From: an uncultured Acidobacteriota bacterium
Lineage (GTDB): Bacteria > Acidobacteriota > Thermoanaerobaculia > Multivoradales > SZUA-115
Reading direction: 5' to 3'
Length of the DNA stretch: 34,699 bases
Assembly: GCA_937867335.1 (NCBI GenBank)
Contig: CALMKX010000209.1
Coordinates: 1 to 34,699, forward strand
Shown: positions 29,823-33,478 of the stretch, piece by piece
How the letters are laid out: every line of letters starts with the position of its first letter
How positions within the stretch are numbered: the first letter of the stretch is position 1
Notes under the pieces: model-generated
What the model was told of the DNA's origin: nothing
Database searches by the model: none
What the model saw: the letters and a program-made list of their open reading frames with translations, nothing else
Translations under genes and position numbers: made by a program

Positions 29823-30671
29823 CTACTCGCCGCGCCGCAGCAGCCAGAAGCGCGTGGAGTTGCCCGGCTGGTCGGCCACGTCCTCGGCGAGCACCACGAG
29901 GCCATAGCGCTGCGCGGCCTCCCGGCTGGCAATCGCGGCCGTACCCGGATCTCCGGCCTCCGCCACCTCGCGGGCGGCACCGGCGGTGTCCCAGGCTGGT
30001 TCCACTTGCCACTCGGAATGGGCAGCGAGGAACTCCCGGCATTGCGCCAGCGCCTGAGGGTGCGAACGCACTCTGGCGACATCCGCAAGCGAGGTGGAGG
30101 CGAAGCCGAGCAGGCAATGGCGGATCTCCACCGTCGCTTCCGCCAGGCATTCGAAGGCGTGCCCTCGCAAGGCGGCGAGCGCCGGCTCGATCGGCCCGCA
30201 GCGGCTGTTCTCGACGGGTACCACGGCAAGCTCCACCGCGCCCGCCTCGAGGCTCGCCACCACGGTTTCGAAGTCCGGATAGCCGCGAGGGTCGGCCTGC
30301 CAACCCAGCCGAGCCAGCAGTCGCTCGGCCGCGAGCTCGCTGTAGGCCCCGGCGGTGCCCTGGAAAGCCACGCTGCGCGGGGGTGCGGCGGCAAGGCTCC
30401 CCAGCCGCTCGAGCTGGCGCGCCACGGACTCCGCGATCACCCGGCAGAAAAGCTCGCGCACGAACGGCTCGGCCAGGCCGAGCTCCGCGGCCCGGCGGCT
30501 CAGGCGCTCGAGGATCTCGGCCTCGCGGGCGGGGTCTCGCACTTCGCGGCGGTGGCGGGCCTTCACTTCTACCACCTGATCCACCAGGCTGTGGCGATCG
30601 GCCAGCAGCTCGAGCAGGCGGTCGTCGATCTGGTCCAGGCGGTCGCGCAGTCCTTCCAGGGCATCCGGCAT
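29823..30671 (-). CDS. pheA: Chorismate mutase/prephenate dehydratase without ACT domain
   Basis: This 282-residue bifunctional enzyme converts chorismate to prephenate and then to phenylpyruvate for phenylalanine synthesis. The chorismate mutase domain (residues ~1-92) is an AroQ helix bundle: LRDRLDQIDDRLLELLADRHSLVDQVVEVK with R11, R26 and K38 as candidate active-site residues. The dehydratase domain (~98-278) has VAFQGTAGAYSELAA, VVPVENSRCGPI, SHPQALAQC, GTAAIASREAAQRYGL and NSTRFWLL (TRF 273-275). The chain ends seven residues after TRF, so the C-terminal ACT regulatory domain with its ESRP motif is absent, and the SUI1 gene occupies the space behind. Feedback by Phe at the enzyme is therefore not expected. 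The ATG at 30671 has GAGAGG upstream. A leader peptide and terminator precede it. Confidence 0.95.
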   Translation of the reverse strand: MPDALEGLRDRLDQIDDRLLELLADRHSLVDQVVEVKARHRREVRDPAREAEILERLSRRAAELGLAEPFVRELFCRVIAESVARQLERLGSLAAAPPRSVAFQGTAGAYSELAAERLLARLGWQADPRGYPDFETVVASLEAGAVELAVVPVENSRCGPIEPALAALRGHAFECLAEATVEIRHCLLGFASTSLADVARVRSHPQALAQCREFLAAHSEWQVEPAWDTAGAAREVAEAGDPGTAAIASREAAQRYGLVVLAEDVADQPGNSTRFWLLRRGE

Positions 30672-30723
30672 CGGTCTCGATCCTCTCGGTCGCCGGACTG
30701 TCTGGGGAAGGAGCTCAGCCCGG

Positions 30724-30804
30724 AAAAGCAAAAAACCCGCCGCGTCGGCGGCGGGTCAGATGGCGATTCGGGGCCTTTTTCGGGCTGAACGCTATCCGCC
30801 GCCG
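30724..30804 (-). terminator. pheA attenuator: competing antiterminator and terminator hairpins
   Basis: On the minus strand ACCCGCCGC (30756-30748) pairs with GCGGCGGGT (30743-30735) around a 4-base loop, and a T6 run follows (30735-30730), an intrinsic terminator 53 bp before pheA. Just upstream, CGGCGGCGG (30804-30796), at the end of the leader frame, is exactly complementary to CCGCCGCCG (30754-30746) inside the terminator's first arm, giving an antiterminator. CCGCC (30814-30810), right after the Phe codons, can instead pair with GGCGG (30803-30799) and so favour the terminator. Confidence 0.8.
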
Positions 30805-30935
30805 GCGCTGGCGGTGGTAAACGAGAAGGCGAAAAAGCGCCGGGCAGCGGCCGAGAAGAAACGAGCTCCCCGTCGCCCTTGCGGGCAGCCGGGCGAGGCG
30901 AGCCTCGAAGCTCGGGTGGACTTCTCGGTCAGCAT
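30792..30935 (-). CDS. pheL: Phe-rich leader peptide of pheA
   Basis: A 47-codon frame with an ATG at 30935 and a TAG at 30792-30794 ends in RFFSAAARRFFAFSF followed by TTASAGGG. Six Phe codons lie between 30860 and 30819; the front half is ordinary and contains none. The last Phe codon is 3 bases before segment 1 of the attenuator, and the stop codon abuts segment 2, as ribosome-stalling control requires. When charged tRNA-Phe is scarce the ribosome should halt on these codons, free segment 2 to pair with segment 3 and allow pheA transcription. An internal start is possible. The gene symbol is used by analogy with enteric pheL. Confidence 0.75.
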   Translation of the reverse strand: MLTEKSTRASRLASPGCPQGRRGARFFSAAARRFFAFSFTTASAGGG

Positions 30936-30942
30936 TCCGGAA

Positions 30943-30951
30943 AGTGTACCA
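30943..30951 (-). promoter_or_regulatory. Putative extended -10 promoter of the pheA leader
   Basis: TGGTACACT (30951-30943) fits an extended -10 (TGnTACACT). No -35 is evident. The ATG of the leader peptide lies 7 bases after the box, so the transcript would start at or next to the start codon (leaderless). The box lies 44 bp upstream of the 5' part of the leader's Phe codons and just after the membrane glycosyltransferase stop. Confidence 0.4.
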
Positions 30952-30987
30952 CCGGGAATCGAGCTGCGGAGCTCCCGGCTCCCCTTC

Positions 30988-32508
30988 TCACTCGAAATGG
31001 CGCACCTCCGGCCAGACTTCGCTGGCAAGGGGCCGGCGCAGGCGGTGGCAGATCCAGATCGGCCGGTGGTTCTCGTAGGGCATGCACAGGCCGCAGTCGA
31101 TGGTTCCCGCCGCCTCCACCTGCTCGAAGGAACGGCCGAGGGCCTCGGCGGTCTGCCCGAGCACGATCAGCACTTCCCCGTCCCAGCCCCTCGGCCCCCA
31201 GAACCAGTAGTTGTTGTGGCCGGAGATCGCCGGCGGCAGGCCGTGGGCGGGGCCGAAGAAGTCCACCGCGCCGGCCAGGCCATAGTTCGGGGCGTAGATG
31301 CGAGCCCGGGAGCGCTCCTCCGGCGGCAGCTGCTGGTAGGCCTTGGCCACCGCCTCCACAGCTTCCGGCCAGCCATGCATGTCGGCAAAGAACTGGCCGA
31401 GGGCTCCCAGCTCTTTCTTCTCCTCGGTCTCGGGCGCCAGCCCCAGGGCCTTGGCGTAGCGCAGGTAGGTCTCGACCGGCAGCACAGGCATGGCGAGCGG
31501 TGCCGCCAGGGCGCCGCCGGCGAGGAGCAGCCCCACCCCCAGGCCCAGCAACGCCGGCCGCAGGCGCAGCAGGCGCGGCGAGCCCAGCCAACGTTCCAGA
31601 GCCACGCTACCGGCGGCGAACAGCCAGCCGTAGGCGGGAGCCAGGTAGGCGCCCCGGCTCGAGCCCGAGAGGGCGAGAATGGCGAGGGGCGTCAGGTACA
31701 GCCAGGCGAGCAGGCGAAACGGCCGGGCCTCCCGGGCCAGCAAGAGGTAACCGAGGCCGGCGAGCCAGAGGGGCAGGGAGAGCGGCAGGAGGATCTTCGC
31801 CTGGTTGGCCAGGAAGTCGAGCGGCGCCACCTTGGCCATTTTGCTGCCGGTGGCGTTCTTCATGAACTCGAGCGTGGGCCAGCCGTGGGCGCTTTCCCAC
31901 AGCAGATAGGGCGCGAAGAGGGCGATCGCGAGCCCCCCCGCCAGCCAGGGGCCCCGGGTGGCGAGCCAGCGGCGCTCGGCGGTTAGGAGCAGCCCCACGG
32001 CGAGCCCCGCTCCCAGCCAGAGCACGCTGATCTTGTTCTCGAGCCCTAGGCCCAGCACCGCTCCCAGCGCCAGCCAGAGCCGGAGGCTTCGACCCTCGAC
32101 TGTCACCAGGCGGATCAGCAGGTAGGCGGCGAGGGTCCAGAAGAAGAGATCGAAGGCGTTCATCGAGTAGAAGTGGTCGAGAGCCAAATACACCGGCGCC
32201 GCCATCGCTGCGGACATTGCCAGGGCCTGGGCCCAGCGCCCACCGCCGAGAGCTCGGGCCGAGAGCCCCACCAGCGCCACGGTTCCGGCACCCAAGAGCG
32301 CCGGAACCAGCCGCAAGGCAAGCAGCGAGTCTCCCAGGGTGTGGTGCACCAGCCAGAGCACCAGCACCGAGAACGGCGGCTGGTCCACGTAACCCCAAGC
32401 CAGGTGGTCGGCGCAGGCCAGGTAGTAGAGCTCGTCGCGGAAGTAGCCGTAGCCGGAGCTGGTGGCGAGATGGAAGAGGAGCTTCACCAGGGCGAAGACG
32501 ACAATCAT
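30988..32508 (-). CDS. ArnT/PMT-type (GT39/GT83-like) membrane glycosyltransferase
   Basis: This 506-residue polytopic inner-membrane protein has about ten to twelve hydrophobic segments over residues 1-370, then a periplasmic C-terminal domain. The first periplasmic loop carries GYFRDELYYLACADHLAWGYVDQPP. Its Asp-Glu pair is the catalytic acidic motif of this GT-C family, which takes sugars from polyprenyl phosphate and transfers them outside the cytoplasm, to lipid A, proteins or glycans. Other family marks are YLALDHFYSMNAFDLFFW and LENKISVLW. The start ATG at 32508 follows GGGAGGG. It lies 22 bp downstream of the glutaminase gene and just upstream of the pheA leader. The acceptor is unknown. 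Confidence 0.9.
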   Translation of the reverse strand: MIVVFALVKLLFHLATSSGYGYFRDELYYLACADHLAWGYVDQPPFSVLVLWLVHHTLGDSLLALRLVPALLGAGTVALVGLSARALGGGRWAQALAMSAAMAAPVYLALDHFYSMNAFDLFFWTLAAYLLIRLVTVEGRSLRLWLALGAVLGLGLENKISVLWLGAGLAVGLLLTAERRWLATRGPWLAGGLAIALFAPYLLWESAHGWPTLEFMKNATGSKMAKVAPLDFLANQAKILLPLSLPLWLAGLGYLLLAREARPFRLLAWLYLTPLAILALSGSSRGAYLAPAYGWLFAAGSVALERWLGSPRLLRLRPALLGLGVGLLLAGGALAAPLAMPVLPVETYLRYAKALGLAPETEEKKELGALGQFFADMHGWPEAVEAVAKAYQQLPPEERSRARIYAPNYGLAGAVDFFGPAHGLPPAISGHNNYWFWGPRGWDGEVLIVLGQTAEALGRSFEQVEAAGTIDCGLCMPYENHRPIWICHRLRRPLASEVWPEVRHFE

Positions 32509-32530
32509 CACAAGCCCTCCCGGGGCGACC

Positions 32531-33478
32531 CTACACCGCGAAGTGCCAGCCGGTTTCACGGGCGAGATCCGAGAGGATCCGATGCCCCCTCACGCTGCCG
32601 CCCTTGGCGTTCACCCGAGGGCTCGCCACGGCGATGCCGGCCCGCCCCTGGGCCACGGCGAGGATCACTCCCGAGACCCCGCTCTTGGCCGGCAGGCCGG
32701 TTTCGAGCAGATAGGTGCCGGATTCGTCGTACATGCCGCAGGTGGCCATCAACGCCACCACCGAGCCGGTGGTGCGGCGCGAGAGCAGCCGTTCGCCCCC
32801 TCCCCCCGGCGCCAGCCCGCCCTGGGCCAGCACGGCGCCCAGCCGAGCCACGTCGGCCACGCCGGCCTCGAAGGAGCAGAGGGTGAAGTAGGCCTCGAGG
32901 ATCTCGTCGACGTCGCCCTGGAGAATGCCGTGGGAGCGCAGCAGGAAGGCGATCGCGCGGTTGCGGTCGCCGGTCTTGCGCTCGGAGGCGAGCACCCGGC
33001 TGTTCACCGGCAGCCGGCGGCCGTAGAGGCGCTCCACCCAGCTCTCGAGCCAGCCCAGACGGGCCGGCAGATCGCCCGGAATCACCGAGCAGAGGGCGAT
33101 GGCGCCGGCGTTGACCAGCGGGTTGGCCGGCTTCGGGCCGTCGGTTTCGAGCCGTGCGATCGAGGCGAAGGAGGCGCCGCTCGGCTCGGCGCCCACCAGC
33201 GAGAACACCCTCTCCGCACCGAGCTCCTCGAGCAGACCGGCGAGCAGCACCACTTTGGCCGAGCTCTGGAGGGTGAAGCGGTGATGGGCGGCATCGCCGG
33301 CGGTGAGTAGCTGGCCGTCCGCCAGCACCATCGCGGCGCTGGTCGCCTCCGGGTCCACCTGGGCCAGCTCGGGGATGTAGCGCGCCGGGAAACCGCCCCC
33401 GTCGGCGCGTGCGTTCGCCACGGCGCGGTCGAGAATGTCCGCCAGCAGGCCCGGCTCGAGGATCGGCTCTTGCCACAT
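32531..33478 (-). CDS. glsA: Glutaminase
   Basis: This 315-residue serine-dependent, beta-lactamase-like enzyme hydrolyses glutamine to glutamate and ammonia. Motifs are QSSAKV, with the SxxK nucleophile Ser72 and Lys75; KPANPLVNAGAIALCS, the conserved NPxxNAGAI; ASERKTGDRNRAIAFLL; and the C-terminal ETGLPAKSGVSGVILAV. The Gly-Val-Ile variant replaces the usual Gly-Gly-Ile. The start ATG at 33478 is chosen because homologs begin here; the frame is open to 33538 with no conserved content. A short hairpin with a T-run precedes it, and the membrane glycosyltransferase follows 22 bp downstream. No link between these neighbours is evident. Confidence 0.95.
   Translation of the reverse strand: MWQEPILEPGLLADILDRAVANARADGGGFPARYIPELAQVDPEATSAAMVLADGQLLTAGDAAHHRFTLQSSAKVVLLAGLLEELGAERVFSLVGAEPSGASFASIARLETDGPKPANPLVNAGAIALCSVIPGDLPARLGWLESWVERLYGRRLPVNSRVLASERKTGDRNRAIAFLLRSHGILQGDVDEILEAYFTLCSFEAGVADVARLGAVLAQGGLAPGGGGERLLSRRTTGSVVALMATCGMYDESGTYLLETGLPAKSGVSGVILAVAQGRAGIAVASPRVNAKGGSVRGHRILSDLARETGWHFAV

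Follow-up and report, generated by a model that had tools for sequence, protein, structure and literature searches.

The pheA locus and the elements of a putative attenuator

Amino-acid leader attenuation is textbook knowledge, mainly from Proteobacteria and Actinobacteria, and in Enterobacteria ribosome stalling on pheL controls pheA. Does a comparable device govern pheA in Acidobacteriota? The question is raised by a stretch of 34,699 nucleotides (the window), a complete contig of the 5.56 Mb draft genome of an uncultured member of the Acidobacteriota (Thermoanaerobaculia), in which a preliminary description had placed a ribosome-mediated attenuator directly upstream of pheA. Our analysis, which is computational throughout, supports this reading, with revision only of the placement of one pairing segment (segment 1). 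Judged from the sequence, the leader very probably controls transcription by ribosome-mediated attenuation, tying pheA expression to how much charged tRNA-Phe is available. The elements of the locus, in window coordinates, are as follows.

30943-30948, minus strand: possible -10 hexamer TACACT, 7 nt upstream of the leader ATG
30935-30792, minus strand: leader ORF MLTEKSTRASRLASPGCPQGRRGARFFSAAARRFFAFSFTTASAGGG*, 47 codons from ATG at 30935 to TAG at 30794-30792
30819-30860, minus strand: control region, six Phe codons beginning at 30860, 30857, 30836, 30833, 30827 and 30821
30836-30850, minus strand: segment 1 as revised here, predicted to form 14 bp with segment 2 with one bulge, the loop holding Phe codons 4-6
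30796-30809, minus strand: segment 2, 5' strand of the antiterminator, core CGGCGGCGG at 30804-30796, within the last leader ORF codons
30746-30756, minus strand: segment 3, core CCGCCGCCG at 30754-30746, able to pair either with segment 2 (9/9 across the core) or with segment 4
30735-30743, minus strand: segment 4, closing the terminator hairpin from the 3' side; stem of 8 G-C pairs plus A-U, loop CGAC
30730-30735, minus strand: T6 run of the intrinsic terminator
30681-30687, minus strand: Shine-Dalgarno-like GAGAGGA of pheA, read from the sequence
29823-30671, minus strand: pheA, 282 aa, chorismate mutase (PF01817) and prephenate dehydratase (PF00800), no ACT domain

The leader frame was found where the preliminary description had put it, with six Phe codons clustered within 14 codons in its last third and pheA downstream. 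Among the 318 ORFs of 15 or more codons in the window, it is the sole one with at least six Phe in 14 codons, and the Phe content of the genes neighbouring it is 3.6%. Its stop codon directly adjoins the 3' side of segment 2, again as described. Between the leader ORF and the structural gene, 59 nt upstream of pheA, sits the intrinsic terminator ACCCGCCGCCGACGCGGCGGGTTTTTT (30756-30730, minus strand), and segments 3 and 4 form it together with the T6 run at the positions originally given. No second terminator of equal strength was found in the window on either strand. The earlier judgement that chance is an unlikely source of the arrangement is borne out by the uniqueness of both the Phe density and the terminator strength.

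We also searched for promoter elements using the E. coli consensus. No -35 element matched at the leader, and the whole of 30600-31150, including the stretch from the terminator to pheA, gave no promoter-like site. The preliminary description had held that its reading would fall if transcription of pheA began downstream of 30730; by the same consensus, no promoter-like site is present there. In five other loci (L167, L220, L258, L262 and L263) TATACT, TATAAT or TAAAGT precedes the leader start at a nearly equal spacing of 6-7 nt. Hexamers resembling a -10 element so close to start codons suggest that some leader transcripts are leaderless, and the window transcript probably starts at or next to its ATG as well.

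Predicted folding favours a switch set by ribosome position

The cores of segments 2 and 3 were both located as proposed and are complementary at 9 of 9 positions. The proposal for segment 1 fared less well. The motifs CCGCC (30814-30810) and GGCGG (30803-30799) are present, but their predicted pairing probability is near 0.01. As the former stretch was hardly used in the folds, we replaced it with 30850-30836, whose helix with 30809-30796 has a predicted pairing probability of ~0.99 in the isolated stretch and is not exceptional compared to shuffles for such G+C-rich RNA (z -0.95). The folds make 30850-30836 the more likely segment 1, and a 14-bp protector helix between 30850-30836 and 30809-30796 is plausible.

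The preliminary description had recommended that the leader be folded. We used a footprint model, in which the RNA left exposed by a ribosome is folded for each position of the ribosome on the leader. With the modelled ribosome stalled on any of the Phe codons F1-F6, segments 2 and 3 paired with a probability of 0.78-0.89 before segment 4 was made. With the ribosome at the end of the leader ORF or its stop codon, this pairing fell to 0 and the 3:4 terminator formed fully. For full-length RNA at equilibrium, the model found the terminator more stable even with a stalled ribosome. The switch must therefore be kinetic and depend on the order of events, as is normal for known attenuators.

From these elements we infer the following course of start, stalling, termination and readthrough. 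Transcription would begin just before 30935, and a ribosome would translate the leader behind RNA polymerase. When Phe-tRNA is ample, the ribosome would reach the stop codon at 30794 and cover segment 2; segment 3 would thus pair with segment 4, and transcription would end near 30730. When Phe-tRNA is scarce, the ribosome would stall on Phe codons 3-6 and cover segment 1; segment 2 would then be open to pairing with the emerging segment 3, so that the terminator would be pre-empted and pheA read. In an untranslated leader the 1:2 helix could form, favouring termination.

The layout recurs before pheA across the Acidobacteriota

Conservation in relatives was the principal check that the preliminary description had suggested. 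We scanned pheA upstream regions from the class and the phylum, with fixed thresholds, for a Phe-rich ORF ending no more than 150 nt before an intrinsic terminator. An alignment-based search of genome contigs gave named loci, and a single-sequence search gave none. Of 149 non-redundant Acidobacteriota loci, 17 showed the layout on the sense strand; the rate is approximate because the thresholds were made stricter following an initial, more permissive scan. By comparison, the antisense strand of the same loci yielded 0 of 149, and control DNA 0 of 126 segments (203 kb) on either strand. The majority of the scanned pheA genes showed no such leader. The layout occurs in about ten families (f1, f2, f3, f14, f27, f36, f38, f39, f43 and f88), and the distance from stop codon to terminator is 24-49 nt in all 17 loci. 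Phe-rich leaders, terminator and antiterminator are thus kept before pheA while the sequences diverge, as the following leaders illustrate; none of the genomes compared has a close orthologue of the window leader itself.

L007, same order as the window: leader MTDRFAFPTFAFTADSGSPIDV*
L021, same order as the window: leader ..FALIALFVLFTTLFTTLSGSPHAI*
L057, same order as the window: leader MRATFTSSFFFFADASPKSGAATG*
L072, same class as the window: leader MISASLRFFAFFSAGRAGSVTV*
L085: leader MRHTAFPFVFTFAGFTAGREAV*
L192: leader MFTATFAFTRAFRRFTRRGRELG*
L208: leader MNFAKDQFFAFYFSGFYYSAL*
L235: leader MNQRTGFTFSPYFYFFPCGERA*

In a tree of PheA made by a quick method, with the window on a long branch, leader-bearing genes cluster, yet at least five changes are needed on the starred branches. 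An F-rich leader with a terminator was also sought at pheS of the relatives, and none was found. At three loci of family f14 (L067, L072 and L073), the attenuator precedes a pheA that appears to encode the dehydratase alone, the chorismate mutase part being absent, indicating that the leader tracks the function of the gene and not its domain make-up.

In nearly all 17 loci the leader ORF ends in codons complementary to the 5' arm of the terminator, and the complementary stretch begins 2-19 nt past the last Phe codon. Across the 17 loci, three of which are close relatives, the 2:3 complementarity exceeded that of dinucleotide shuffles of the leader end, with a combined p of 3e-10; L176 and L192 showed no excess. 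The terminator arms also paired more strongly with their own leaders than did the arms of other species (-22.5 vs -17.2 kcal/mol). The window's own 2:3 complementarity was not significant (p 0.088) because the region is very G+C-rich; the candidate antiterminator is supported by its 9/9 pairs, the footprint model and this phylum-wide test.

Covariation, which the preliminary description had asked for in segments 2/3 and 3/4, was computed not on the window leader but on the 13 alignable leaders of family f39 (alignment A2). RNAalifold predicted the terminator and, upstream, a hairpin that in most rows carries the last Phe codon in its loop; two-sided changes occur in both helices. Together these two helices had 14 cells with two-sided changes vs 4.2 in shuffles, and a covariation of 0.228 vs 0.089; the counted pairs exceeded both shuffles and slid controls. 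The expectation of covariation thus held for the terminator (3/4), and more weakly for the antiterminator (2/3), which had less support than the upstream hairpin and the terminator.

Other explanations for the Phe-rich frame and the terminator

The hairpin could simply terminate the upstream mannosyltransferase-like gene (30988-32559), a Phe-rich frame overlapping it by chance. This gene runs in the same direction and stops ~50 nt short of the leader ATG, and 30756-30730 is the first terminator after it. However, no other ORF in the window packs six Phe into 14 codons, Phe leaders of uniform geometry recur at this place in about ten families and were seen nowhere else, and a plain terminator gives no reason to expect a segment 2 complementary to its arm. 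We regard this explanation as improbable.

Still less probable is a leader peptide that acts chiefly on translation, for example by reinitiation or by unmasking the pheA ribosome-binding site. Many phyla, Acidobacteria among them, commonly have leader ORFs close to genes (PMC4833913), but in the same paper those for reinitiation peak at 10-16 bp, whereas here the stop codon precedes the pheA ATG by ~120 nt and a complete intrinsic terminator separates the two. We give the least credence of all to a T-box or another riboswitch binding a ligand or tRNA. In Firmicutes such genes are under T-box control, and sensors are known to pass between clades (PMC2965389), yet no Rfam family reached threshold in the window, and a permissive search of the leader returned chance-level matches, none of them a T-box. 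T-box and Rfam leader families were rejected on these grounds. Among the Rfam amino-acid leader families, none matched at the curated threshold, and the best permissive match was Leu_leader at 19.9 bits vs a threshold of 50; the leader is invisible to Rfam because its sequence is not conserved. A ribosome-mediated attenuator remains by far the preferred reading.

The window PheA lacks an ACT domain

In known enzymes, feedback by Phe acts through the ACT domain. The window PheA stops directly after its dehydratase domain. Of 75 Acidobacteriota P-proteins, 74 run at least 94 residues past the dehydratase domain into an ACT-like region, the exception being the window PheA; an ACT Pfam match is shown for the PheA of L007. 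The ACT region of L007 PheA had no match anywhere in the window organism's draft genome, which is 97% complete and holds one prephenate dehydratase gene. In the same search, an ACT match lay directly behind the dehydratase in 9 of 9 other relatives with a dehydratase. Other leader-bearing pheA genes keep ACT. With the domain lost from the window enzyme, attenuation may be the main control by Phe or carry more of it. The lineage may thus have exchanged allostery for attenuation, as suggested, short of proof, by one case in a draft that is 97% complete.

No close orthologue of the window pheA was found among members of its family. In one of these (G002), pheA (L358 / L075) is a divergent copy with an ACT domain that lies directly behind an scpB-like gene; a leader and terminator were looked for at this copy, and none was found.

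Relation to known attenuators and to other leaders in the group

The window locus shares with pheL-pheA of E. coli and Salmonella a Phe-rich leader ORF, a predicted upstream hairpin, an antiterminator and a terminator before a bifunctional pheA gene, and presumably also the logic by which a ribosome stalls on Phe codons. It differs in that its leader is longer (47 codons vs the 15 of E. coli pheL) and without an Rfam match, segment 2 lies inside the last ORF codons, the start is likely leaderless, and the controlled enzyme has no ACT domain.

Outside the Proteobacteria, the accessible text of PMC9723704 describes a structured 5' element before pheA in Flavobacteriaceae and clues to leader-peptide attenuation before amino-acid operons. 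That pheA element is likewise conserved and unmatched in Rfam, but it belongs to another phylum and the mechanism at pheA is not stated in that text. In Acidobacteria, premature terminators or attenuators with unknown sensors were predicted, almost none with an assigned function (PMC2965389); these share the phylum of our locus, but pheA is absent from the main text of that paper. Actinobacteria have leader-peptide attenuators (e.g. PMC1262725) that are likewise ribosome-mediated and outside Proteobacteria, in another phylum and with other sequences. Lopatovskaya et al. 2010, a comparative survey of attenuation known to us through its citation in PMC4833913, may contain candidates outside Proteobacteria. 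The preliminary description knew of no account for such an organism; this agrees with our search, in which none of the papers open to searching linked Acidobacteria to a Phe leader. The mechanism is already known; what appears to be new is its location, its sequence and how widely it occurs in the phylum.

Leaders for other amino acids were seen in the same group. In G002, of the window's own family, a Trp leader MPRRSMPKGSSIPAATLSGWWWLSHIHWTGV* (L356, minus strand; ORF end at 726) with TATACT 7 nt upstream of its ATG precedes a strong terminator that lies immediately ahead of trpE. Four loci of the window's order carry His-rich leaders with a strong terminator upstream of the hisG region: ..AHLHHLHHGHRR.. 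in L298 (minus strand, near 863), ..RWHHHGLS* in L301 (minus strand, 226), ..GHWHHHVN* in L307 (minus strand, 215) and ..VHHHHGMS* in L318 (plus strand, 223).

We tentatively propose, with confidence a little short of even, that Acidobacteriota broadly use leader-peptide attenuation, partly leaderless, for Phe, Trp and His synthesis, and that the ACT-less pheA of the window lineage relies on feedback through the attenuator and not on allostery. Attenuation of pheA in many Acidobacteriota families would make the mechanism wider than annotation suggests and provide concrete test cases, and the loss of ACT from the window PheA would represent a natural experiment on swapping allosteric control for attenuation.
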